A program made the position numbers and the translations under genes. Below, in pieces: positions 1 to 10,920 of a stretch of DNA of 36,932 nt. The stretch comes from Tannerellaceae bacterium (GTDB taxonomy: Bacteria > Bacteroidota > Bacteroidia > Bacteroidales > Tannerellaceae), in the NCBI GenBank assembly GCA_031271045.1, contig JAISWO010000018.1:1-36932 (forward strand), written 5' to 3'. Within the stretch, counting starts at the first letter, position 1; each line of letters opens with the position of its first letter. The notes beneath the pieces were generated by a model that was given only the letters and a program-made list of their open reading frames with translations, did no database searches and was not told the DNA's origin.

Positions 1-263
1 TATCTGATAACCAATACCCCCTGTGTACTACAAAACGGGTTTTTACGAACTTTGAAAAATCGAACTACTGATTTACAATAGCTTACGATTTTTATGTGAA
101 AAACTCCAAGCAAAAACCGTCTGTTTTTAACTGAAATTTAACAACTCGAGGTGGAAATGCTGCAATGTGGGTTAAGTTATCAGTTATCCATCTTCCTGAG
201 ATAAATTTTAGTTCTACCCTATAAATCTGTTTCTTCGCAGACTAATTTCAAAACAGAAAAAAT
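1..263. other. AT-rich leader region upstream of the recombinase; no gene
   Basis: I see no open reading frame worth calling in this stretch. It holds a 13-bp partial copy of the cassette inverted repeat (175-187, in the same orientation as the right-hand repeat) and an 8-base match, CTGATAAC, at 4-11. The recombinase promoter must lie here, but no clean TAnnTTTG box is visible. The best candidate is TAAATCTG at 222-229, with one mismatch and no convincing -33 partner. Confidence 0.5.
175..187 (-). repeat. Partial copy (13 bp) of the cassette inverted repeat
   Basis: The sequence AGTTATCAGTTAT is identical to the inner 13 bases of the 26-bp repeat found at 5422-5447, and is the reverse complement of bases 1237-1249. 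It lies just upstream of the recombinase gene. It could be a secondary or decayed recombination site, or the left end of the mobile unit. It contains an internal direct repeat, GTTAT-cA-GTTAT, which is also present in the full sites. Confidence 0.6.
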
Positions 264-1244
264 ATGGAAACGAACAACTTATGTAAAAGTGTGAATAAGA
301 TGAGTGTAAACGAGGTGATGAAAAATTTTCTCTTTCATTGCCAATTTGAGAAGAATTTGAATCCCAAAACATTAAAAGCTTATGATACAGACCTAAAACA
401 ATTTGCAGCCTATATAAAGGATACAGAGGATGAGCTTAACTTCAAGTGCATGTCTAAAGGAACTCTGAAAAACTATTTACAAGAAATATCTCATCTTAAA
501 GCTAAAACAGTAAAACGGAAAATAGCCTCATTGAAAGCAATGCTCAATTTTCTCGAATATGAAGACGATGATTACATCAACCCTTTCCGTAAAATGAAGA
601 TTCGTTTGAAAGAACCAAGTCTACTACCTTCTGTTATGACTTTGAGTGAGGTGAAGAAAATCCTGAATATTATGTATAAAGAACTAAGTAATAATCAGAA
701 TATGGACAGCTATACATATAAAGCACAAACTCGCAATCTTGCAATTGTAGAAATTTTGTTTTCAACGGGAATGAGGGTTTCTGAAGTCTGTAATCTAAAA
801 TTTGAAGATATTAATCTAAAAAATGGAGTAATAAAGGTCTTCGGAAAAGGAAGTAAAGAACGTATTATACAAATATGCCAGCATGAAACGCTTTTGATAA
901 TCAGGACCTATTATCAATGCTACAAGCAAGAGATCAAATCTGAATCTTCTTTTTTTATCAACCGATTAGGACAATGTGTCTCAACACAATCGGTCAGACT
1001 CATGATAAAATCTTATGTAAAGAAAGCAGGACTATCCAAACGAATTACCCCGCATACTTTCAGGCATACCTTCGCTACTTTACTTTTAGAAGAGGATGTT
1101 GATATAAAATATATCCAGAATATGCTTGGACATAGTTCTATTGCTATTACACAAATATACACCCATGTAAATGTAAGTAAACAGAAAAAGATTTTAGCAA
1201 CCAAGCATCCTAGAAGAAAGTTACAACTGAGAGGGAATAACTGA
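264..1244 (+). CDS. Tyrosine recombinase (XerC/D-like integrase), probable invertase of the adjacent cassette
   Basis: This is a site-specific recombinase of 326 residues, a normal length for Xer/phage-integrase enzymes. Residues about 15-100 form the SAM-like core-binding domain (NPKTLKAYDTDLKQF). The catalytic domain follows, with the full active-site set visible: R171 (STGMRVSE), H264 and R267 (HTFRH), H290 (LGHSS) and the nucleophile Y299 (IYTHV). The stop codon (1242-1244) lies inside the left 26-bp inverted repeat, only 12 bases before the start of the glycosyltransferase, so the recombinase and whichever gene occupies that slot should be co-transcribed. Family knowledge: in Bacteroides, enzymes of this type invert neighbouring promoters or gene cassettes. 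That this one acts on the 1236-5447 block is inference from position and repeats. An integrase of a larger element is the alternative. Confidence 0.93.
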   Translation: METNNLCKSVNKMSVNEVMKNFLFHCQFEKNLNPKTLKAYDTDLKQFAAYIKDTEDELNFKCMSKGTLKNYLQEISHLKAKTVKRKIASLKAMLNFLEYEDDDYINPFRKMKIRLKEPSLLPSVMTLSEVKKILNIMYKELSNNQNMDSYTYKAQTRNLAIVEILFSTGMRVSEVCNLKFEDINLKNGVIKVFGKGSKERIIQICQHETLLIIRTYYQCYKQEIKSESSFFINRLGQCVSTQSVRLMIKSYVKKAGLSKRITPHTFRHTFATLLLEEDVDIKYIQNMLGHSSIAITQIYTHVNVSKQKKILATKHPRRKLQLRGNN

Positions 1245-1261
1245 TAACTATTTATTATGGA
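1236..1261 (+). repeat. Left 26-bp inverted repeat of the putative invertible cassette
   Basis: This sequence is a perfect reverse complement of 5422-5447. It starts AATAACTGATAACT and ends TTATTATGGA. It includes the recombinase stop codon, the spacer and the first five bases (ATGGA) of the glycosyltransferase gene. The match stops exactly at both ends: the next bases outside and inside differ between the two copies. A 26-bp perfect inverted repeat beside a tyrosine recombinase is what an inversion site looks like. Confidence 0.9.
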
Positions 1262-2321
1262 ACTTTCTTTAATTATTATTGTCCACAACACTAATCCATT
1301 TATCACCAACCTATTGACCTCACTAAAGGCAATAAATTGTGATCAAATTTTTCTGCTTAATGGAATGCTTGATATCAAGTCTATCCAACTCTTTGAAGAA
1401 TATAAAAGAGCAAGAAATGGGATTAAAATAATGAAAACCGACTCTATGCTACGACACCCTGTTGCTATCAATATGTTGCTGGCAGAAGTGAAAACAAAAT
1501 ATGTTTTTATAATGGATTCGGATATCTTAACCACAGAAGAAGACTTGGGCGAAATATATCGTTTTATGGAAAGTAATCCTGCATATGGAACTGTTCAAGG
1601 ATTGTTGATATATCCACAAAACAATCGAATACAATCTTCCGGACATATTTTTTATGAATACGCGGATTATTATGGATATTACAACAACCCTATGGCTAAT
1701 TTAAACAAACCATTGAAACGTCAATCGCTTTCTGCAGGATTTGCTATGTATCCTATGGCTGTTGTATACGAAATGAATGGGTTTGATGAATTTTATTCTT
1801 ATAGTTATGACGGTGTTGATTTATCAACTAAGATACATTTTGGAGGTTACGAAGTTTGTTGTTTACCTACTTCAAAAGGATACCATTTTCACAGTCTTTT
1901 GAGGAAAAGTTTTGCTAACATATCTGAAAATGAACAAAGTAGGTATTGGTCTACTTACGGGAAACTCATAAAAGATGATTTACCTGAGGAAATATTATCA
2001 AATAATTTATTCCGCGATTTTTCAAACTTTATTATTATAGATTGTAGCACAATAAAAAACATGTCGATATTTTTAGAACAAATAGGCTTATCTGGCAATA
2101 ATCTGGAATTAAAGATTACAGATCTGAATGATGAAAGTATTATTCTCCAAAACATGGTTCCTTATTCAATTCTCAGTACCAGATGCAATATTCTATGGCT
2201 ATGCACTAATTTTATGCAGATTGCAAATAATCATTTTGTATTTAGTCAGAATCATCGACAAGGCGATTTTATTATGGATCTTTCAGCTAATATAATTCCT
2301 GTTTCGTTGATGTGTAAATAA
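1257..2321 (+). CDS. Family 2 glycosyltransferase (GT-A fold)
   Basis: The 354-residue protein begins with the usual GT2 strand (LSLIIIVHNTNPF) and carries the metal-binding acidic motif in IMDSD (near residue 90). It has a further GYHFHS segment near residues 205-210 and no membrane segment, so it should be a soluble or peripheral transferase that adds a sugar to a surface glycan or protein; donor and acceptor cannot be told. The last 120 residues match nothing I recognise. The start ATG lies inside the 26-bp inverted repeat shared with the convergent NTPase gene. Its stop is 3 bp from that gene's stop, leaving no room for a terminator. It has no promoter of its own that I can see and probably depends on read-through from the recombinase. 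It is much more AT-rich than the genes beyond 6.2 kb. Confidence 0.8.
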   Translation: MELSLIIIVHNTNPFITNLLTSLKAINCDQIFLLNGMLDIKSIQLFEEYKRARNGIKIMKTDSMLRHPVAINMLLAEVKTKYVFIMDSDILTTEEDLGEIYRFMESNPAYGTVQGLLIYPQNNRIQSSGHIFYEYADYYGYYNNPMANLNKPLKRQSLSAGFAMYPMAVVYEMNGFDEFYSYSYDGVDLSTKIHFGGYEVCCLPTSKGYHFHSLLRKSFANISENEQSRYWSTYGKLIKDDLPEEILSNNLFRDFSNFIIIDCSTIKNMSIFLEQIGLSGNNLELKITDLNDESIILQNMVPYSILSTRCNILWLCTNFMQIANNHFVFSQNHRQGDFIMDLSANIIPVSLMCK

Positions 2322-2324
2322 ATA

Positions 2325-5300
2325 TCAAAATCGTGTTTCCACATAAAATGTTGGTTGAGAAGCTAACTCAGTATTATAACTTACAGAAAATTCATGAGGA
2401 CGCAATCCTACCAGCATTTTATTATGCTTTATTTTTGACTGGAAACTTTCTCCTAATTTAGAAAAACAAATTTCTTGTTCATTTAAACATTTCATCGCAT
2501 CCGAATAATTGCGGTTATTTAAATACACAAGTGCTTTTAATCCATAGTATGTACCCAATGGTAAAATTGGAAAATCTCTAATATCAAGCACTGAATTCAA
2601 CGTTTTTTCTAACCTGTCTAAATCTTTTTTGATAGCGTAGCACAACGATAATTCTAACTTTGCGATCTTATAATTATAATTGAGATTTTGTTCTTGTCCC
2701 CATTTGATCAATTCTTCAAATTCATCTGTAGAACTATATCCCAGAATGCAACTTATTTTTAGAAATGATGATTTCAAAACAAATTTGTTTTTAACAGGTA
2801 AATCCGGCCACTTTTCTATATAATCTGCAAGCATTGAATATGATTTCTCTGGACCGTTTATAAAATTGAGTGACATAAAATTCAGATGTACATGTATTGC
2901 TATCCTGTTAATGTATTCGTTAGGAATTTTCAAAGTAATATCATCGTATATGGCTTCTGCTAATTTAGCTCTGTCAGTGAATAGCAATACACTCAAATAT
3001 CGCGTACTTATTGTAAAAAATGAAATCCAATCAAAGTAAGTCTTTTTTTCTTTATGAAAAAAGTCAGTTGTTATTATCCGATATTTATCTTCAATACTTT
3101 TAAAATCTAAATTCCAATAATCACAGTTAGCAATTTCAGACAGAATGATATTGGACAAACTTTGCTCTTCCGTAGACAATTTCCCGCTAAGTGTGCCGTA
3201 AGCTTTGTCGAAGATTTCACGACCATTATTTTCACCAACATTAAAGGTTGAATACGCGTAATAGAACAGTAGGAGGGCTTTCTCATAATTGTTTCCAATA
3301 ATCGTTTCCGTTCCTGGTGCGGAAAAGAATCTATTTAATACATAATATATATTGAAAAACTGTTGCTTCTCATGGAATATTTCTATCTCTTTTATAAAAC
3401 TGATTCTATACTTTATAAACTCAGTTTTAAAATGTCCAAGAACACCTAAATATTCAATAATATAGCCTTTATCCTTACGATATAAAGCATATTTGTATAT
3501 GTGTTTACTATTATGTTTTATTTTGGGAATAATAGAATCGGTTAAAATATCATGATATGGAACAAAAATATCATCTGCATATTCGTACCTTATCATATTT
3601 TTACAAAGCAAATCATTTATTGCTTCGTTGTTATATTCCTTTATTAAATACTGTGCTTCGACTCCTTTTTCAAAAAAATATATAATATCTACAATTTCCT
3701 TGTCCCCTCTACTAAGATGGATATAACCAATTTCTCTGATATCACCCATTAGTATTTTTTTTATAGATTTATTCTGAAGTAAGTTTACTGGATCTTTTTT
3801 CTCCAAGAATGATGCAATGGTTATGAACTCTTTCAGAACAATCAGGTTACGGCATAGTTTGCGAATAACTATAGTCGGAATATCATTTAATTGATAACTT
3901 TTTAGAGTATCCATAACGCTATTTTCACACAGTTCTACTTTTAGTGGATTTCTTGCAGAATATTTGTCAATAAACTCATCCAGTTCAGCCAATTTAAGAT
4001 GGCTATCCCTTTTAGCACAAACAATTAATATTTTATGATTAGAAGTACTTAATTCGTTTAAAATCCGTAATAGTAATCTCGAAGGCTTCTCTTCCAAAAA
4101 TTGTAAGTCATCTATAACTATAATTTTATTTTTTGTGACATTGGTAAAAGGTATTAATTCGCGTTTCCCCATTAATTTATTTGTGTTCTCAAGCGTGTTG
4201 TTGTCATCTGCAAGATAATTCAAATATTCGGTATAATACTTATTATAGCCACTTATTTCATTAAGCAGAGATATGTCTTGATTCAATTCATCCAAAGATT
4301 CATCTTTATTGTCGAATTTATTATCGGAAAAGAATTTTCCAAAAACTATAAAGGTCAGTAGTCTTATCAATAACCAACTATTATTCAGTTCATTATTATT
4401 TTGCCTGAATTTAATGTATATATATTCCTGATTATGTTTCTTTTTAAGAAAATTTTCCAACATCCACGACTTTCCATGCCCTGTAGCTCCTTTTACAAGA
4501 TAGAGGTATATCCCAGATTCGAGTTTTTTAAAAGTTATAAAAGCTTGATCAAGTTCATATTCACAATTATGTTGAGATGTATTTAATACTTTAATCCCTT
4601 TATCACTTTCAATACGAGCTTTTATGTTTATATCAACTATTTCGTTCGTATTTTTTTCTTTTAATTTTAATATAGGGTTCTGGGAATTTATTACTCCTTT
4701 TGAAATTGGCCGAAAAGGGATATGAATGAAATTAGTACCTCTATTGAGAATTAATTCGTATGAAGGGCTTATCCATACTAAATCTGAAACTCCAATTATT
4801 TCAAAATCAATTTCTTGTTTGGTGTGCGTGGGAATATTTAAAGTTAAAAAAAGCTCATAATCTTCCCCTATAGTCAGACTATCAGTATAGGTAGCAACAA
4901 CATTAAAGACACTGTTCGGTTTTATGATCAACGGATTATCAAGAAATAAAAAGTTTACATTTTCTGTCAGCCCTTTTTGCGTAAACCCGTACTTTTTACA
5001 AATATACGTTTGTTCTTCGCTTAGTAACCATGATTTCAATTCTAATCCTGTAATGAAAAGAACATTGTTATTCAATGCTGTTTTTATTTCTTTTATTGTT
5101 TTGGCCGTAAAAAATGCATTCGTTACTATTAATATCTTTTCGACTTGTTCCCTATAGTTATGGCCAATAAGTACTGTCGAAGCTATTTTGCTAAGAGGCA
5201 AGGCGTGATTATATTTTTTGGTATACTTTGCTTCATACCAAACTTCTTTTTTTATGTTACGACTGAAATTTGTTTTAATATTTACAATTGTGGCTTGACC

Positions 5301-5426
5301 ATCTCGCCCCCCATCGCGAGTTAGTTTTGTGGGTTTCCAATCCCAGTCTGGTTGTATATATTTGGCATATTCGTATGCTATTTCTTCAAATTTCCTTTCA
5401 TTTATAACTCCCCAGAAATCATCCAT
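2325..5426 (-). CDS. Mrr-type nuclease / STAND-like NTPase with helical C-terminus, probable anti-phage defence protein
   Basis: The protein has 1033 residues. Residues 1-150 look like an Mrr-type PD-(D/E)XK endonuclease: RDGGRDG (D42) followed by E65-x-K67 in WYEAK, then the strand-helix pattern ILIVTNAFFT and LFITGLELKSWL typical of Mrr. A beta-rich linker (about 160-290) leads to a P-loop NTPase with Walker A GATGHGKS (near residue 312) and Walker B IIVIDD (near 433). The C-terminal 400 residues are helical and TPR-like. This nuclease-NTPase-repeat order is that of Avs/STAND defence proteins, in which the repeat region senses phage proteins and the NTPase triggers the nuclease. That role is inference. 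The start ATG lies in the right 26-bp inverted repeat, with a promoter-like sequence just outside it. A non-defence Mrr-NTPase cannot be excluded. Confidence 0.8.
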   Translation of the reverse strand: MDDFWGVINERKFEEIAYEYAKYIQPDWDWKPTKLTRDGGRDGQATIVNIKTNFSRNIKKEVWYEAKYTKKYNHALPLSKIASTVLIGHNYREQVEKILIVTNAFFTAKTIKEIKTALNNNVLFITGLELKSWLLSEEQTYICKKYGFTQKGLTENVNFLFLDNPLIIKPNSVFNVVATYTDSLTIGEDYELFLTLNIPTHTKQEIDFEIIGVSDLVWISPSYELILNRGTNFIHIPFRPISKGVINSQNPILKLKEKNTNEIVDINIKARIESDKGIKVLNTSQHNCEYELDQAFITFKKLESGIYLYLVKGATGHGKSWMLENFLKKKHNQEYIYIKFRQNNNELNNSWLLIRLLTFIVFGKFFSDNKFDNKDESLDELNQDISLLNEISGYNKYYTEYLNYLADDNNTLENTNKLMGKRELIPFTNVTKNKIIVIDDLQFLEEKPSRLLLRILNELSTSNHKILIVCAKRDSHLKLAELDEFIDKYSARNPLKVELCENSVMDTLKSYQLNDIPTIVIRKLCRNLIVLKEFITIASFLEKKDPVNLLQNKSIKKILMGDIREIGYIHLSRGDKEIVDIIYFFEKGVEAQYLIKEYNNEAINDLLCKNMIRYEYADDIFVPYHDILTDSIIPKIKHNSKHIYKYALYRKDKGYIIEYLGVLGHFKTEFIKYRISFIKEIEIFHEKQQFFNIYYVLNRFFSAPGTETIIGNNYEKALLLFYYAYSTFNVGENNGREIFDKAYGTLSGKLSTEEQSLSNIILSEIANCDYWNLDFKSIEDKYRIITTDFFHKEKKTYFDWISFFTISTRYLSVLLFTDRAKLAEAIYDDITLKIPNEYINRIAIHVHLNFMSLNFINGPEKSYSMLADYIEKWPDLPVKNKFVLKSSFLKISCILGYSSTDEFEELIKWGQEQNLNYNYKIAKLELSLCYAIKKDLDRLEKTLNSVLDIRDFPILPLGTYYGLKALVYLNNRNYSDAMKCLNEQEICFSKLGESFQSKIKHNKMLVGLRPHEFSVSYNTELASQPTFYVETRF

Positions 5427-5447
5427 AATAAATAGTTATCAGTTATT
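5422..5447 (-). repeat. Right 26-bp inverted repeat of the putative invertible cassette
   Basis: This is a perfect inverted copy of 1236-1261. Read on the minus strand it holds the untranslated leader and the first five bases (ATGGA) of the NTPase gene. The bases beyond (5448-5450, and from 5421 inward) do not match the left copy. Confidence 0.9.
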
Positions 5448-5450
5448 GGA

Positions 5451-5478
5451 CAAATATACGAAAAATGCATGAATTCAA
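5451..5478 (-). promoter_or_regulatory. Candidate promoter just outside the right inverted repeat
   Basis: On the minus strand TATATTTG (5458-5451) matches the Bacteroidetes -7 box TAnnTTTG, and a TTG lies upstream at 5478-5476. The spacing is 17 bases, shorter than the usual 19 to 21, which lowers confidence. Transcription would begin inside the repeat and read into whichever gene occupies the right end of the cassette, at present the NTPase. Because it lies outside the repeat it would stay in place during inversion. Confidence 0.45.
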
Positions 5479-5833
5479 TCCTTTATCATTAATAAAAGCT
5501 GAAAAGAAGACTTCTTTTATCTACCTATTTATCAATTCCTCATCTTTTTCGATACAAGTTTCAAGAAGATATATCTATTTATTTTAGTAAATATACTGTG
5601 GAAGTAAAGCAAACTTATTTTAGGACAACTTCGAATAAATATACCAAATTAACCGATTCATTTCTTTCGTATTCTATTGATACTCTTAAAGTCAAACAAA
5701 CAATACCCCCCATCCTCAAGTACAACACCTCACATTCGGCTCCCCATGCACGTCCCTTTTTTTAAGATAACTTGAATCCCGTTTCATCCACGCTCAAGCC
5801 CTAAAGGGTTTTAAGAAAAAAATTCCTTATCGC
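5479..5833. other. Non-coding AT-rich stretch between the cassette and the IS remnant
   Basis: I see no gene here. A short possible hairpin, AAGCCCT-aa-AGGGTTTT, lies near 5799-5815. The strand composition changes toward the IS end at 5834. The stretch is probably intergenic debris from past insertions. Confidence 0.4.
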
Positions 5834-5857
5834 TGAACTGCACCCAGAAAGTTGGAC
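5834..5857 (-). repeat. Terminal inverted-repeat-like end of an IS3-family (IS150 group) element
   Basis: The sequence TGAACTGCACCCAGAAAG followed by TTGGAC is typical of the outer end of IS150-group elements. It lies immediately after the stop of the transposase tail at 5860, as expected for the 3' end of such an element. No matching second end is visible in the window. Confidence 0.7.
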
Positions 5858-5859
5858 GG

Positions 5860-6099
5860 TTAATATTTGGTTATAGAAGTGAGATGAGTTCTGAACTGTA
5901 CAGGACTCATTCCCTTTAGTTTAAGTTTAATCCTATTATTGTTGTAGTAATCTATATATTCTTTTAATTTTTCAACAAATTGTTCCATTGATTCAAATTC
6001 CTGCAAATATAATAACTCTGACTTTAAGATGAACTGGGTCTTCAACTCGAACCACTCTTCGTTACGCAAATGAGTTAAATCAATTCGGATTGTTTTCAT
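5860..6099 (-). pseudogene. Chimeric remnant: start of a DUF6261-like gene fused in frame to the tail of an IS3-family transposase
   Basis: The 79-codon frame is made of two unrelated parts. About the first 23 residues (RIDLTHLRNEEWFELKTQF) resemble the opening of DUF6261 proteins, compare RRLRNAEHFDLFERF in the DUF6261 gene at 16202-17383 of this window. From about residue 24 the sequence is the C-terminal end of an IS150-group OrfB (LKSELLYLQEF, then EYIDYYNNNRIKLKLKGMSP), lacking the DDE catalytic core. The IS end follows the stop. The simplest reading is that an IS inserted into the 5' end of a DUF6261 gene and that most of the IS was then deleted. The frame is open and might be translated, but no function is expected. 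Confidence 0.7.
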
Positions 6100-6187
6100 T
6101 TCGTCCGTTTAGATATGTTTTATATTTCATGTCCTGAAATGTATGGATTTATGTTCAAAATACCTCGCAATACATTATATGCAAAAA

Positions 6188-6225
6188 AACTGCCCGGAAA
6201 GCAGTAAGTACTTTTCCGGGCAGTT
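6188..6225. terminator. Strong bidirectional terminator
   Basis: A 13-bp perfect stem, AACTGCCCGGAAA paired with TTTCCGGGCAGTT, has an A-run on its left and a T-rich right side, so it can stop transcription on both strands. It closes the minus-strand nqr/DUF5723 transcription unit and insulates it from the island on its left. Confidence 0.9.
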
Positions 6226-6255
6226 CTTTTGTGTGACGATTATCCGCGGGAAGGG

Positions 6256-7662
6256 TTAGTCGTGGACTTGTCCGATGGGAATAGCTAAGCCGAACTGGAT
6301 ATTGGCTATCGAGCTGCTGACGGGCAGGAACTGTGAGCTGACCTTGGGCATCAGATAGTCGCTTGCCACAAAGAAATGTACTCCCCGCTTGGGCGCTATG
6401 TGCAGAGCTAATCCAAAGGCTTCGCCTCCGTTGAGGAACGAATAACTCAGGGCGGCAGATAGCCATTTGATCCGGCCCGGATTGTAGTTGGCCGACAGGG
6501 TAAGCTCGCTCGCGACGACACTTCCCAGGCGGGTGGACGACAGGATGCCGGCCGACAAACCCTCTTCAGGCAGGACGACGTACTCAACCCCTGCATTGAC
6601 GGTGGAGTACAGCATCGTGGTACGTCCCTGGGCTTTGCCGGATTGTTTGAAATTGATGACTTCCATGATGTCGTCAATGGTATTATCCAGATTTTCTTTG
6701 AAATCGAAATCCCCTTCGCTCTCTTCGCCGCCGCCTATGCTGGAGGAGTTTCCTCCCGGGGTGACGGAGACCTGGGTTTCGGGCGCTTTCATATTAATCG
6801 CGCTGGATCCCGACCAGGCAAGGATACCCAGGTCGGTAACGGCCAGCGATACTTTCGCCTTGTCAGTGATCGAATATACAGCTCCCAGATCCAGAGCGAA
6901 TCCGTAGCCGGTGACGCCGATGTCGTTCGTTTCGACGGTTTCAAACAGGCCGTTTTCGTCGTAAACGGCTTTCATGCCTGAGCCATTCAGCGTGGCTTTC
7001 GAACGAGCTGTCCAGAGATCTTTCCGGATGGATACATCCAAGGTTTCGATGTCCAGGTCGAGGTCGGCAACGCCTAAGAGCAGCTTGGCTTTAGCGCCCA
7101 CGGCAAGGCGATTGTCCAGGAATGTACGGGCATGTCCGACGCTAACTTCCGTGTATCCGGTCAGGGATAGGTTAAGGTCGCGGATCGGATAATTGAGGGT
7201 TTGGTCTCCGGCCGTGAATCCTATCTTCATCAGTTCAAACAAAGGCTTGGGTATGGTAACATCCACCAGTGCCTTGACGCCTACGCCGAAGCTCCAGAAG
7301 CCACCGTCCTTGGCATAAAAACCGAAAGAGAGGGGCTGGTAGTTCATGCCGGCTGTAAAACTGCTCTCGCCCGGCAACTTGGATAAAAACTCCGACGAGG
7401 AGACTAAGGGGTGCATAAAGGTCACTTTCTCGCCGTTCCGGTCGAACAGGAAGTTGTCCAGATACAAGGCATTCGTGTTGGCCTCCACTGTCAGGTCCGA
7501 CAGGCCAGGGATGCCGATGTATCCTTGACGGGGCATAAAGGCTGGGTTCAAGCCTTGACGGCTGTAGGAGTTGGACAGAAAGTAATCCGTGCGGGCCGAT
7601 TGTGCCACAAGTGTCGTACCTGCAAACATGGCGAGTACGGAGATAATGATATATCTTTTCAT
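6256..7662 (-). CDS. DUF5723 family protein, outer-membrane barrel-like
   Basis: The 468-residue protein has a signal peptide (residues 1-20, ending LVAQS) and then SNSYSRQGLNPAFMPRQGYIGIPGLSDL, the opening typical of DUF5723 proteins of Bacteroidetes. The rest is rich in alternating hydrophobic strands and glycines, as in outer-membrane beta-barrels, with a low-complexity acidic and glycine-rich insert near residues 305-320 (GGNSSSIGGGEESEGDFDF). The end, ANIQFGLAIPIGQVHD, looks like a closing strand. Its biochemical role is unknown. It lies 25 bp downstream of a small lipoprotein gene and is the last gene before the terminator at 6188. The nqr genes lie further upstream, so it may be partly driven from the nqr promoter. 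Confidence 0.8.
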   Translation of the reverse strand: MKRYIIISVLAMFAGTTLVAQSARTDYFLSNSYSRQGLNPAFMPRQGYIGIPGLSDLTVEANTNALYLDNFLFDRNGEKVTFMHPLVSSSEFLSKLPGESSFTAGMNYQPLSFGFYAKDGGFWSFGVGVKALVDVTIPKPLFELMKIGFTAGDQTLNYPIRDLNLSLTGYTEVSVGHARTFLDNRLAVGAKAKLLLGVADLDLDIETLDVSIRKDLWTARSKATLNGSGMKAVYDENGLFETVETNDIGVTGYGFALDLGAVYSITDKAKVSLAVTDLGILAWSGSSAINMKAPETQVSVTPGGNSSSIGGGEESEGDFDFKENLDNTIDDIMEVINFKQSGKAQGRTTMLYSTVNAGVEYVVLPEEGLSAGILSSTRLGSVVASELTLSANYNPGRIKWLSAALSYSFLNGGEAFGLALHIAPKRGVHFFVASDYLMPKVSSQFLPVSSSIANIQFGLAIPIGQVHD

Positions 7663-7687
7663 TGATTGTTAAATTACTGGTGATGAT

Positions 7688-8305
7688 TTATAATGCAATC
7701 TTAACCCCGCCGGACAGTTTCACGTTGATGTTTTCAATCAGAGCATAGTCTGACAATTCCACTTGCCGGGTCTGGAAAGAAAACGTTAGTTCCAGCAGAC
7801 GTGCACCTTTGAGTTTGAGCACGTCGTCCTTTTTGATTTTCACAACATAGGGTTGCGGCGTAGAGATATTGGCCTTGAAAGTTTGGTTCTCAACGCTTAT
7901 ACCGGTATCCTCACCGTTTTCGTTCAAGATTTTGGTTGACAGATTGATGTCAGAGAACAACTTACCTTCCGCATCATTAATCCCGGCAATAAAATCGGCT
8001 TCAAACGAGATGTCACCCAGAGGTTCTTCCCTTCCTTTGTTATCATAAACAAAGTAATCGAACATTTCGTCCGAGAACAGACCCCTGACGGGTTCTGTGT
8101 ACTCAACATCGACCGGTATGGGCAATTCCGCCTGTAGATCAAATGAGATCGTGTCAAGGCTCCCTATTTGCAACAGGATGCCATTGTCGTGACTAAACGC
8201 ACCTTCCTTGTTTACGTCCTCCAGGTTGTATCCATCCTGCACGCAGGAAGATACGCCGCCCAGAGCCGCAACAAGAGTTAATAAATAAAGCAATCTTCTC
8301 TTCAT
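7688..8305 (-). CDS. Hypothetical lipoprotein paired with DUF5723
   Basis: The 205-residue protein has a lipoprotein signal (MKRRLLYLLTLVAALGGVSSC) with the lipidated Cys at residue 21, so it is anchored in an envelope membrane. The mature part is predicted to be all beta: NGILLQIGSLDTISFDL, then repeated strands ending in LSGGVKIAL. I cannot name a family. It sits 55 bp downstream of nqrF and 25 bp upstream of the DUF5723 gene, and such pairs of a small lipoprotein and a DUF5723 barrel suggest the two act together in the outer membrane. That link is inference from neighbourhood only. Confidence 0.75.
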   Translation of the reverse strand: MKRRLLYLLTLVAALGGVSSCVQDGYNLEDVNKEGAFSHDNGILLQIGSLDTISFDLQAELPIPVDVEYTEPVRGLFSDEMFDYFVYDNKGREEPLGDISFEADFIAGINDAEGKLFSDINLSTKILNENGEDTGISVENQTFKANISTPQPYVVKIKKDDVLKLKGARLLELTFSFQTRQVELSDYALIENINVKLSGGVKIAL

Positions 8306-8360
8306 TTTAATTTATGTTTGATATTAAATGTATGCTATAAAATCATTCCCTGTTTGACTT

Positions 8361-9623
8361 TCAAGCCCCAAAGTCGTCGAACATCAGCATTTCGGGCGGT
8401 ACGCCCAGACTGTCTAACATGACTTTCACGGCGTTCGACATCGGACCGGGGCCGCACATATAGTATTCGATGTCTTCCGGTGCTTCGTGATCGCAAAGGT
8501 AGTTGTCGAGGATGACTTTGTGGATAAAGCCCACGTAGCCAGTCCAGTTATCCTCCGGGCGTGGCTCGGAAAGGGCAATGTGGAATTTGAAGTTGGGGAA
8601 CTCCTTTTCGATGGCACGGAAGTCTTCTTCGTAGAAAATTTCGTTCTTCGAGCGAGCGCCGTACCAGTAGGACACCTTGCGGTTGGTTGTCTTCAGTGTG
8701 TTGAACAAGTGCAGCAGATGAGCGCGCAGGGGCGCCATGCCGGCTCCTCCGCCGATGTATAGCATTTCGCGTTGTGTATCCAGGATATGGAAATCGCCGT
8801 AAGGGCCTGACATTTTCACTTTATCTCCCGGCTTGAGGGTAAAGATAAACGAGGAAGCGATACCGGGCTTGATGCCGGCTTTCCATGTTCCCGTAGTACG
8901 GTCGAAGGGAGGTGTGGCGATGCGAACGTTGAGGGTAATGATATTGCCTTCGGCCGGGTAATTGGCCATTGAATAGGCGCGGATGGTTTCCTCTTCGTTC
9001 TTGCAGGCAAGGTTCCACATTTTAAACTTATCCCATTCTTCTCTGAAGCGGTCGTCCACATCAATATCCTTGTACAACATATCGAATTTGGGAATCAGGA
9101 TCTGCGAATAACTCCCCGGCTGGAAATTCATCACTTCGCCTTCCGGTAGCTTCACGGTAAATTCTTTGATAAAAGAAGCCACATTGTGGTTGGACACCAC
9201 CGTACACTCCCACTCTTTCACGCCGAAGACCGATTCGGGAACAATGATTTGGATATCCTCTTTCACCTTAGTCTGGCAACCCAGACGCCAGTTGTCTTTT
9301 ATCTGCTTGCGCGAAAAGAAGCCTACTTCGGTAGGCAAGATATTACCGCCGCCTTCGGGTATCTGGCACCGGCATTGTCCGCAGCTTCCGCTTCCGCCGC
9401 AGGCTGAAGACAGGAAGATACCGTTGCTCTGCAACGTACCAAGCACTGTACCTCCCAATGGAACTTCATATTTCTTTTCGCCATTGACAACCATCTCCAC
9501 TTGGCCTGATGGGAGCAGTTTGGTTTTGGCATACAACAATGCACCGACTAAGATAAGCGTAATCAACAAGAAGACAATTGCTCCCGCTGCAATGGTAAGT
9601 CCGCCTGACATTAATAGAATCAT
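8361..9623 (-). CDS. nqrF: Na+-translocating NADH:quinone reductase subunit F
   Basis: NqrF is the NADH-oxidising subunit: it takes electrons from NADH onto FAD and passes them through a 2Fe-2S centre to the membrane subunits. Its 420 residues are the usual length. An N-terminal membrane helix (residues 8-32) is followed by a plant-type ferredoxin domain with all cluster cysteines (SACGGSGSCGQCRC and, later, RLGCQTK). The FAD-binding RAYSMANYP, the nucleotide motif YIGGGAGMAPLRAH and the C-terminal CGPGPMSNAV-DDFG complete the reductase domain. It is the last gene of nqrABCDEF, 25 bp after nqrE. The N-terminus could instead begin at Met5. Confidence 0.97.
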   Translation of the reverse strand: MILLMSGGLTIAAGAIVFLLITLILVGALLYAKTKLLPSGQVEMVVNGEKKYEVPLGGTVLGTLQSNGIFLSSACGGSGSCGQCRCQIPEGGGNILPTEVGFFSRKQIKDNWRLGCQTKVKEDIQIIVPESVFGVKEWECTVVSNHNVASFIKEFTVKLPEGEVMNFQPGSYSQILIPKFDMLYKDIDVDDRFREEWDKFKMWNLACKNEEETIRAYSMANYPAEGNIITLNVRIATPPFDRTTGTWKAGIKPGIASSFIFTLKPGDKVKMSGPYGDFHILDTQREMLYIGGGAGMAPLRAHLLHLFNTLKTTNRKVSYWYGARSKNEIFYEEDFRAIEKEFPNFKFHIALSEPRPEDNWTGYVGFIHKVILDNYLCDHEAPEDIEYYMCGPGPMSNAVKVMLDSLGVPPEMLMFDDFGA

Positions 9624-9648
9624 CTGTTATTTCGTTAATGCGTTAATA

Positions 9649-10266
9649 CTAAATTTTAAGACCGGAGAAGCACATGAATCCAATACCCATCAAACCGGTA
9701 ATGATAAACGTAATACCTAATCCCTTCAAGGGTTTGGGTATATTCGAATACGTCAGCTTCTCACGAATGGCAGCCATTCCTACGATGGCAAGCAGCCATC
9801 CTATGCCACAACCTAAACTGTAAACCGTGGCTACGCCTACATTGGCGAATGACTTTTGCTGCATAAAGAGCGAACCGCCCAGAATGGCACAGTTGACGGC
9901 AATCAGCGGCAGGAATATTCCCAACGAGGCGTATAAGGCAGGAGCAAAACGTTCGATCACCATTTCAACCAACTGCGTGAAGGAAGCAATGACGGCTATG
10001 AAGATCAGGAAGGAGAGGAAACTGAGATTCACTCCTTCGTATCCGGCTCCCAGCCAGCTCAACGCACCTTCTTTCAGTACATAATTCTCAAGTATATAAT
10101 TGATAGGCAATGTGCATACGAGGATAAACGTCACGGCGATACCTAATCCTAAAGCCGTCTTCACATTCTTGGAGACTGCCAGGAATGAACACATACCCAG
10201 ATAGTATGCAAATATCATATTGTCGACAAAAACGGCTCGCACGAATGTGCTTAATAATTCTTCCAT
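9649..10266 (-). CDS. nqrE: Na+-translocating NADH:quinone reductase subunit E
   Basis: NqrE is a six-helix membrane subunit that, with NqrD, forms the Na+ pathway of the complex and holds an iron centre between the pair. I start it at the ATG at 10266, giving MEELLSTFVRAVFVDNMIFAYYLGMC, because this matches the family start; the frame is open for nine codons further upstream. The protein has 205 residues, the normal length. The paired half-helices with Cys (YYLGMC and VNCAILGG) typical of the NqrD/E fold are present. It starts 27 bp after the nqrD stop. Confidence 0.96.
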   Translation of the reverse strand: MEELLSTFVRAVFVDNMIFAYYLGMCSFLAVSKNVKTALGLGIAVTFILVCTLPINYILENYVLKEGALSWLGAGYEGVNLSFLSFLIFIAVIASFTQLVEMVIERFAPALYASLGIFLPLIAVNCAILGGSLFMQQKSFANVGVATVYSLGCGIGWLLAIVGMAAIREKLTYSNIPKPLKGLGITFIITGLMGIGFMCFSGLKI

Positions 10267-10293
10267 TGTATTTGTTATTAATAGAATCAACAA

Positions 10294-10920
10294 TTAATTT
10301 TCCTGAAGGTCTTTGTTCTTCGAACGATGCACCCATATAATGACGGCAACGACAATAAGCGCCATCGGAGGCAGTATCATCAGGCCATTGTTCACATAAC
10401 CCCATTGATAGAAGACATCGGGAACGACTTGGTATCCCAATAAGGTGCCCGATCCGAACAATTCGCGGAAAAAGCCGATAATTACCAGTATGATCCCATA
10501 TCCCAGACCATTGCCCAAGCCGTCGAGGAACGATTCCCAGGGGCCGTTGCCCAGTGCAAAGGCTTCTAAGCGCCCCATCAGGATACAGTTTGTAATGATC
10601 AGCCCCACAAAGACAGATAGCTGCTTGTTTACGTCAAACGCAAATGCCTTCAGCACTTCGCTTACAATCGTTACCAGTGCGGCCACCACCACCAATTGCA
10701 CGATGATGCGGATACGGTTCGGTATCGTATTCCTTAGCAACGATATGATGACATTGGCAAACGCTACGACGACCGTCACTGAAATACCCATCACGATCGA
10801 CGGTTCCAGTTTGGAGGTTACGGCCAAGGCGGAGCAAATCCCCAGCATCTGGACAATGACAGGATTATTCTTGCTAAACGGACCTGCCAGTATTTCTTTA
10901 CTTTTATTTGATAATCTCAT
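10294..10920 (-). CDS. nqrD: Na+-translocating NADH:quinone reductase subunit D
   Basis: NqrD is the membrane partner of NqrE and homologous to it. Its 208 residues include the characteristic helices VQMLGICSALAVTSKLE and IITNCILMGRLEAFA, each with a Cys expected to bind the intramembrane iron centre. The start overlaps the end of nqrC by 17 bases, indicating translational coupling. The tail is hydrophilic (HRSKNKDLQEN). It belongs to the nqr operon transcribed from upstream of nqrA. Confidence 0.96.
   Translation of the reverse strand: MRLSNKSKEILAGPFSKNNPVIVQMLGICSALAVTSKLEPSIVMGISVTVVVAFANVIISLLRNTIPNRIRIIVQLVVVAALVTIVSEVLKAFAFDVNKQLSVFVGLIITNCILMGRLEAFALGNGPWESFLDGLGNGLGYGIILVIIGFFRELFGSGTLLGYQVVPDVFYQWGYVNNGLMILPPMALIVVAVIIWVHRSKNKDLQEN

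Follow-up and report, generated by a model that had tools for sequence, protein, structure and literature searches.

Why do two convergent genes each start inside one arm of the same perfect inverted repeat, directly beside a gene for a tyrosine recombinase? The arrangement lies in a 36,932-nucleotide stretch (the window) from a Tannerellaceae bacterium of the order Bacteroidales (assembly GCA_031271045.1, contig JAISWO010000018.1). A sequence-only reading of this DNA had proposed that the recombinase inverts the segment, so that a glycosyltransferase (GT) and a nuclease-NTPase defence gene trade places behind one translation start. We find that such an invertible cassette is real as a feature of the recombinase family and very likely exists in the window itself, where the present copy would presumably invert in the same way as its relatives.

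Anatomy of the cassette

The window starts at base 1 of its contig, in a draft genome of 2.79 Mb (74 contigs, 88.5% complete). The locus comprises the following features.

264..1244, + strand: tyrosine recombinase, presumed invertase (326 aa; stop codon within the left arm; Pfam Phage_integrase, 9e-44)
1236..1261, + strand: left (recombinase-proximal) recombination site (dyad GATAA-N7-TTAT; holds the recombinase stop and the GT start)
1257..2321, + strand: family 2 GT (354 aa; ATG in the left arm; Pfam PF00535 Glycos_transf_2, 2.9e-13)
2325..5426, - strand: Mrr-like nuclease and STAND-like NTPase (1033 aa, from 5426 down; ATG in the right arm)
5422..5447, - strand: right (distal) recombination site (perfect inverted copy; holds the NTPase start)
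5451..5458, - strand: putative -7 promoter box TATATTTG, reading into the cassette
5476..5478, - strand: TTG, a possible -33 element 17 nt farther out than the putative -7 box (read by eye)
175..187, + strand: third copy of the repeat core (half-site), upstream of the recombinase

The structural part of the sequence-only reading holds to the base: arms of 26 nt, 100% complementary and 4160 nt apart, enclose the two convergent genes and include both of their ATGs, and the recombinase next to them is intact. The recombinase, GT and NTPase frames are all open and free of internal stops. The sequence GTTATCAGTTAT, searched at up to one mismatch, matches three times in the window, each time exactly, against 0.18 matches expected, and the 13-mer AGTTATCAGTTAT occurs at three places in the whole draft genome, all of them at this locus. 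The repeat core is not there by chance. Its third copy (175-187) is without the second half of the dyad and is probably a relic; two relatives (loci L012 and L014) have a full cassette at this position.

Presumed catalytic residues are conserved in all three window proteins. In the recombinase, R171, K195, H264, R267, H290 and Y299, which we take to be the R-K-H-R-H-Y catalytic residues of a tyrosine recombinase, are invariant in 13 aligned family members. D87 and D89 of the GT are invariant in an alignment with two cassette relatives, and homologues of this GT lie in cassettes L146 (1e-15) and L148 (5e-12). The window NTPase was aligned with four other cassette NTPases that are 15-17% identical to it; all five proteins retain D38, G39, D42, E65 and K67 of the nuclease-type region, together with G313, G316, G318 and K319 (Walker A) and D439. 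The Pfam matches of the window NTPase are all sub-threshold (Mrr_cat 0.0028, AAA_22 1.8e-4, nSTAND3 0.0064), and Mrr_cat is over the cut-off in L140, L144 and L146 and just under it in L148. A search of solved structures gave no meaningful match to the NTPase (best E 0.12) and none to the GT at E up to 0.1, and no relatives of either protein were found in IMG/VR. The GT also had a PADLOC match to E1-E2 (1.2e-4), which we judged spurious.

Both orientations among relatives

Inversion was observed directly on two Aliarcobacter plasmids, pACRY43158 (L124) and pM830MA (L123). They carry recombinases of the same protein accession (985 bp, 100% identical) and the same neighbours, a site-specific integrase (WP_066152124.1) on the left and a DUF4172 protein (WP_105918343.1) on the right. 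The 3.5-kb cassettes between these genes are 99.9% identical and reversed exactly from repeat to repeat, and with the segment flipped in silico the two plasmids align over 6559 bp at 99.92%. The STAND-like gene of pM830MA is split by a frameshift; pACRY43158 has an intact copy. A further, different recombinase-cassette unit shares plasmid pACRY43158 with this one; the two lie at 52-56 kb and 69-74 kb (L124 and L118).

More diverged cassettes with homologous cargo are likewise found in opposite orientations. One such pair, L140 and L144, encodes GT and Mrr-STAND proteins (GTs 34% identical, 2e-37; Mrr 1e-11; NTPase 5e-22) and genes of 234 and 220 aa (39%, 4e-43). The other, L034 and L118, encodes ATP-grasp with YbaK and a STAND-like protein.

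Assembly breaks also fall on the sites. Contigs stop at the site, 16-44 nt past the recombinase stop codon, in L028, L138, L149 and L150, and the contig of L035 stops at the upstream site. We searched four of the five broken genomes (G695, G1089, G1070 and G501) for the missing flank and found it in G695 and G501, where a second contig ends on the same last base as the first; a second copy of the site was not found in G1089 and G1070. Paired contig ends at the same base are what mixed orientations would do to an assembly graph. The proposal of a recombinase-linked invertible cassette is thus borne out by the exact inversion in Aliarcobacter and by both orientations of homologous cassettes, with one orientation only in the window's own genome.

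Distribution of the recombinase and its sites

The closest recombinase relative is on an IMG/VR contig (L028, 95% identical); its homology to the window runs from the upstream half-site (window position 182) to the downstream site. Upstream of the recombinase, that contig has an open frame of 2145 aa (2254-8691) that is phage-structural by look, no family search having been made. Relatives at 76-80% come from records named Parabacteroides, Dysgonomonas and other Bacteroidales, and farther ones in the same search are 38-69% identical (L016, L019 and L020 being partial). At 41-51% we found the Aliarcobacter plasmids, two more IMG/VR contigs and human-faecal scaffolds. One more faecal scaffold (H15) is 33.5% identical, and matches in Streptococcus, Listeria, Paenibacillus and Enterococcus are all at 30-38%.

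Genomes with a recombinase match numbered 2/18 in the genus sample (E <= 1e-60), 6/123 in the family sample and at least 4/393 in the order sample (both 1e-100), and at least 7/394 and 8/396 in the phylum and class samples (1e-90); these overlapping samples each include the window's own genome, and the order, phylum and class counts are lower bounds because at most five candidates were scored per genome. Two other families gave 3/101 and 1/8 (1e-100).

The recombinase occurs in other genomes with the same layout. We examined 38 records, of which 30 have a full-length recombinase with at least 1.5 kb downstream, and looked for an exact inverted repeat of at least 15 bases with one arm between -20 and +60 of the stop codon and its partner 0.9-7 kb away. 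Such a repeat is present in 22 of the 30 (20/28 with the near-duplicates L012/L013 and L123/L124 merged) and at 5 of 364 control positions, taken where other open stretches of 150 codons or more end in the same DNA pieces. Two of these five are cassette sites themselves (L017, L040). Duplicates were omitted (L016, equal to L029; L033, equal to L013; L038, equal to L028; and the short loci L021-L027, L036, L037 and L125-L137), as were the fragments L019 and L020 and the distant IMG/VR loci L041-L117 (23-36% identity). The phylum and class samples contributed 13 new recombinases, of which 10 have downstream repeats and 3 are on contigs that end at the site.

Cassettes and sites also occur upstream of the recombinase. 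L119 and L040 have a cassette upstream and none downstream, L014 has one upstream as well, and L012 has cassettes on both sides. An upstream site is present in L030, L031, L032 and L035. In L029, L030, L031 and L032 this single upstream site has no partner in the DNA read, which extends about 0.5 kb of contig past the site in L031 and 8 kb in L030. No cassette was found in L018, and L120 and L121 are too short to judge. The upstream invertible cassette of L012 (4124-6079) has a different spacer from the downstream one, which would allow as many as four orientation states. In L142, read with its recombinase on the + strand, inverted arms of about 240 bp (90% identical) at 9084-10875 enclose no more than a pair of short open stretches (64 and 72 codons).

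Nearly all loci that we read share the dyad GATAA-N7-TTAT, with AATAA in L122, L123 and L124. The spacer is identical at the two ends of one cassette and variable among loci (several share one), and in L012 and L014 it differs between the upstream and downstream cassettes. This is as expected if strand exchange needs equal spacers. In many of the loci inspected by eye, the first genes start within about 20 bases of the site, so the site would double as leader and start region. A search of IMG/VR for site patterns of the window type returned a single contig, that of L028. Six stretches matched a GGATAAC-type site in IMG/VR; the pieces fetched held no recombinase relative, and we treated these matches as chance.

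Promoter boxes outside the distal site

Which of the two genes is expressed may be indicated by the flanks. The -7 promoter consensus of Bacteroidetes is TAnnTTTG, and a perfect, inward-pointing box lies 8-12 nt outside the distal site in 5/8 cassettes nearest the window (0.12 expected) and in 0/7 of their proximal flanks. Among 10 further, more distant loci, five of the six box positions are matched in 5/10 distal flanks versus 1/10 proximal flanks, and no flank on either side has a perfect box. Two extra distal flanks were inspected by eye; a perfect box is present in G501 and absent from G695. With moderate confidence, we read this as a distal gene (now the NTPase) that would be constitutively expressed in the window and a GT that would follow the recombinase; the distal slot would then be the stronger one.

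Paired cargo genes

What is placed in these cassettes? We identified cargo by Pfam; the label STAND-like is our own, given from size and mostly sub-threshold AAA matches. Many cassettes hold an enzyme in one arm and something else in the other. A GT faces a Mrr/STAND-like NTPase in six loci (the window, L011, L140, L144, L146 and L148), where the GTs match Pfam Glycos_transf_1, Glycos_transf_2 or, below threshold, family 28. The GT adjoins the recombinase in all of them except L140, where the order is reversed and the Mrr part and the remainder are in two separate frames. In L011, Pfam gives the NTPase part only; the N-terminus, 28% identical to that of the window protein across 88 residues, retains the same set of invariant nuclease residues.

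The other pairs are diverse. ATP-grasp, with or without YbaK, is opposite a STAND-like protein in L034, L118, L123/L124 and L040, and a protein with weak BLAST similarity to ATP-grasp is opposite a 557/563-aa protein in L012 and L014 (TPR sub-threshold in L014). A family 4 glycosyltransferase is paired with a 244/250-aa protein in the upstream cassette of L012 and in L015, and a methyltransferase with a protein that has two hydrophobic segments in L010 and L039. Further pairs are acetyltransferase and methyltransferase (L122), UbiA and a membrane protein (L147), an FAD enzyme and a membrane protein (L139), a spermine-synthase-like and an unassigned protein (L143), methyltransferase and EamA (L141), and a pentapeptide protein with an aminotransferase (L145) or with ATP-grasp (L017). 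No match to a type I specificity subunit was found among the cargo proteins scanned with Pfam. We tallied where the enzyme lies in 20 downstream cassettes that have a single recognisable enzyme arm: next to the recombinase in 16, at the distal end in 4; the labels were set after seeing the data, L013, L122 and L142 were excluded, and L123 and L124 (the same cassette) were both counted.

One cassette, on an 80-kb unverified human-faecal scaffold (L119, 6531-8696), contains convergent SIR2-STALD and TIR genes between inverted repeats. The SIR2-STALD protein is of the ThsA type (PADLOC 2.7e-97), and the TIR protein (Pfam TIR_2, 2.2e-12) has PDC-S66 as its best PADLOC model (4.4e-13) and ThsB as its second (3.1e-7). 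By predicted domain content, this is a Thoeris cassette.

In the recurring cargo groups, both genes of a pair are found together across different hosts. The layout for a swap holds, as the sequence-only reading had it, but the two genes do not look like unrelated alternatives: the pairs resemble linked partners, several of them recurring in distant hosts. Cassettes can also be exchanged as units at the sites, as one case shows. L122 and L123 share 98% identity across the recombinase up to the left site; past their cargo, which is unrelated, they are 90% identical again, starting some 20 bases within the right site and continuing outward. In L010 and L039, the cargo proteins are 78-82% identical and the recombinases 51%.

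A proposed two-slot switch and its alternatives

We propose that the dedicated tyrosine recombinase inverts the segment between the two identical 26-bp sites that flank the convergent pair. Each site would be the 5' leader and start of the adjacent gene, so inversion would swap the genes precisely between two expression slots, one in which a gene is cotranscribed with the recombinase and a distal one driven by a fixed promoter that lies beyond the right repeat. In the present orientation, the Mrr-STAND NTPase would occupy the promoter slot and the GT the recombinase slot. The pair may defend against phage, with the NTPase/nuclease as intracellular immunity and the GT as a surface change or a partner. 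Taken as a whole, this is probably the best explanation of the locus. Slot exchange is well supported by the anatomy and less so by the promoters, and we hold it slightly less firmly because the promoter count used the loci that had suggested it. The earlier idea that the genes exchange behind the same leader is retained, with the amendment that the distal slot, and not the one at the recombinase, may be constitutive.

Several observations weigh against this proposal. The window contig crosses both sites in a single orientation, and two near-identical relatives (L012 and L013, 99.1%) share one orientation. Eight of the 30 records have no downstream repeat (L018, L030, L031, L032, L035, L119, L120 and L040). 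The loci in which the -7 box was counted are those in which it had first been noticed by eye, so its P of 4e-8 is not a clean test, and none of the distal flanks of the 10 more distant loci has a perfect box. No PADLOC model matched the window NTPase, and the predicted structures of the NTPase and GT are of low confidence (mean pLDDT 46.5 and 40.9), too poor for a fold search. Finally, Thoeris requires both of its genes, which makes it a poor fit to strict either/or expression.

The last point bears on how a flip would be used. Both partners of one immune system could always be expressed, with inversion changing which is constitutive and which follows the recombinase. Several pairs do recur together in distant hosts, and L119 holds the ThsA-type SIR2-STALD and TIR genes that Thoeris needs together. 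However, we know of no two-part GT/Mrr-STAND system, and a perfect proximal promoter box is missing (0/7 and 0/10), although read-through from the recombinase could supply expression; we put this use at a little under an even chance. Bet-hedging between strictly alternative states, surface change or intracellular immunity, would suit the six loci in which a GT faces a Mrr/STAND-like NTPase. The Thoeris-type and acetyltransferase/methyltransferase cassettes do not fit a surface-or-immunity scheme, and recurring specific partners are unexpected of free alternatives, so we find bet-hedging of this kind rather doubtful. A defence role is likely for some of the cargo (the Thoeris type and Mrr-STAND); for the window pair, anti-phage function and bet-hedging are both hypothetical.

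The repeats might instead serve mainly to capture and exchange cassettes, with inversion as a by-product. The shared recombinase and distal plasmid flank of L122 and L123 around unrelated cargo, and the similar cargo of L010 and L039 beside divergent recombinases, would agree with this. Inverted sites favour inversion above excision, both orientations are found, and the sites lie at gene starts, as expected for an expression switch; capture as the main role is improbable. It is very improbable that the window holds a chance repeat or a dead relic. Such a reading could draw on the single orientation in one draft genome and on the degenerate upstream half-site, but it is opposed by 26/26 identity of the arms, intact genes, conserved residues and a layout shared by 22 of 30 relatives. 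Returning to the two-slot switch, we see an even chance that these loci represent a widespread, undescribed class of element in Bacteroidota, on Campylobacterota plasmids and on human-faecal scaffolds. Each would combine a dedicated tyrosine recombinase with an exchangeable invertible cassette of co-evolving partners, a biosynthetic enzyme opposite a STAND-like, nuclease, TPR-like, pentapeptide or membrane protein, or once both halves of Thoeris. Flipping would exchange the roles of the two partners, one constitutive and the other dependent on recombinase expression, giving a phase-variable, swappable two-part immunity.

Comparison with known inversion systems

No description of this layout was found in the open-access PMC literature (preprints and subscription papers were outside the search), which does describe inversion systems of other kinds. 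The G segment of phage Mu and the C segment of P1 have convergent alternative genes between inverted repeats, with the invertase gene and promoter outside. The window resembles them in its two convergent genes within inverted repeats and an invertase gene just outside. Their invertase is a serine enzyme, whereas that of the window is a tyrosine recombinase, and what they swap is the variable end of a single tail-fibre protein, joined to a part that stays constant, and not unrelated pairs. With respect to an external promoter of the Mu type, the convergent genes are present here and the distal box occurs in 5/8 near and 0/10 more distant loci.

Capsule phase variation in the same order, Bacteroidales, works by promoters that flip. 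In the window, by contrast, genes would flip: they start within the repeats, and the promoter-like -7 box lies outside, unlike a capsule-type promoter inside its segment. Defence NTPases of the Avs/STAND type and Mrr nucleases combine a nuclease-like N-terminus with a P-loop NTPase. The window protein would have both parts, but its sequence match is weak and it is encoded in an invertible cassette.

Published systems share other aspects of the locus. Bacteroidales capsule phase variation has been linked to phage (PMC8375218), a link that our proposal shares. For Bacteroidetes, the inversions reported lie around genes for capsules and for putative carbohydrate-binding receptors; inversions between hsdS genes are common (PMC5903667). 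Such hsdS inversions alter type I restriction-modification function (PMC4948785), which is likewise a defence-related function changed by inversion, but there homologous specificity genes recombine, and the cargo proteins scanned here include none. The mba/UU376 locus of Ureaplasma switches between two different genes by inversion at short repeats, for which tyrosine recombinases have been proposed as mediators (PMC3047005, PMC3599477); this is similar to the present case, but it is a surface antigen locus, and the available text mentions neither a dedicated adjacent recombinase nor exchangeable enzyme/NTPase pairs. In PinQ/StfE2, an inversion made by a recombinase alters phage susceptibility; that enzyme is a serine recombinase, the segment it acts on belongs to a different cryptic prophage, and a chimeric gene results (PMC12529663).

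Phase variation is known to alter phage receptors and restriction specificity. Here, whole gene pairs, some of immune type, lie in a dedicated flip cassette that is exchangeable as a unit and occurs in two phyla. The recombinase with its paired dyad sites provides a handle to find undescribed immune-type gene pairs, and raises the testable question of whether a bacterial population flips DNA to hold one member of an immune pair in reserve.

Outside the cassette

One further site-like feature lies at the left end of the contig.

1..12, - strand: site-like GATAACC (weak, possibly chance)

On the other side of the cassette, a 136-bp stretch (5834-5969) has a 99% copy on another contig (C16) of the same genome and is perhaps the remnant of an insertion sequence.

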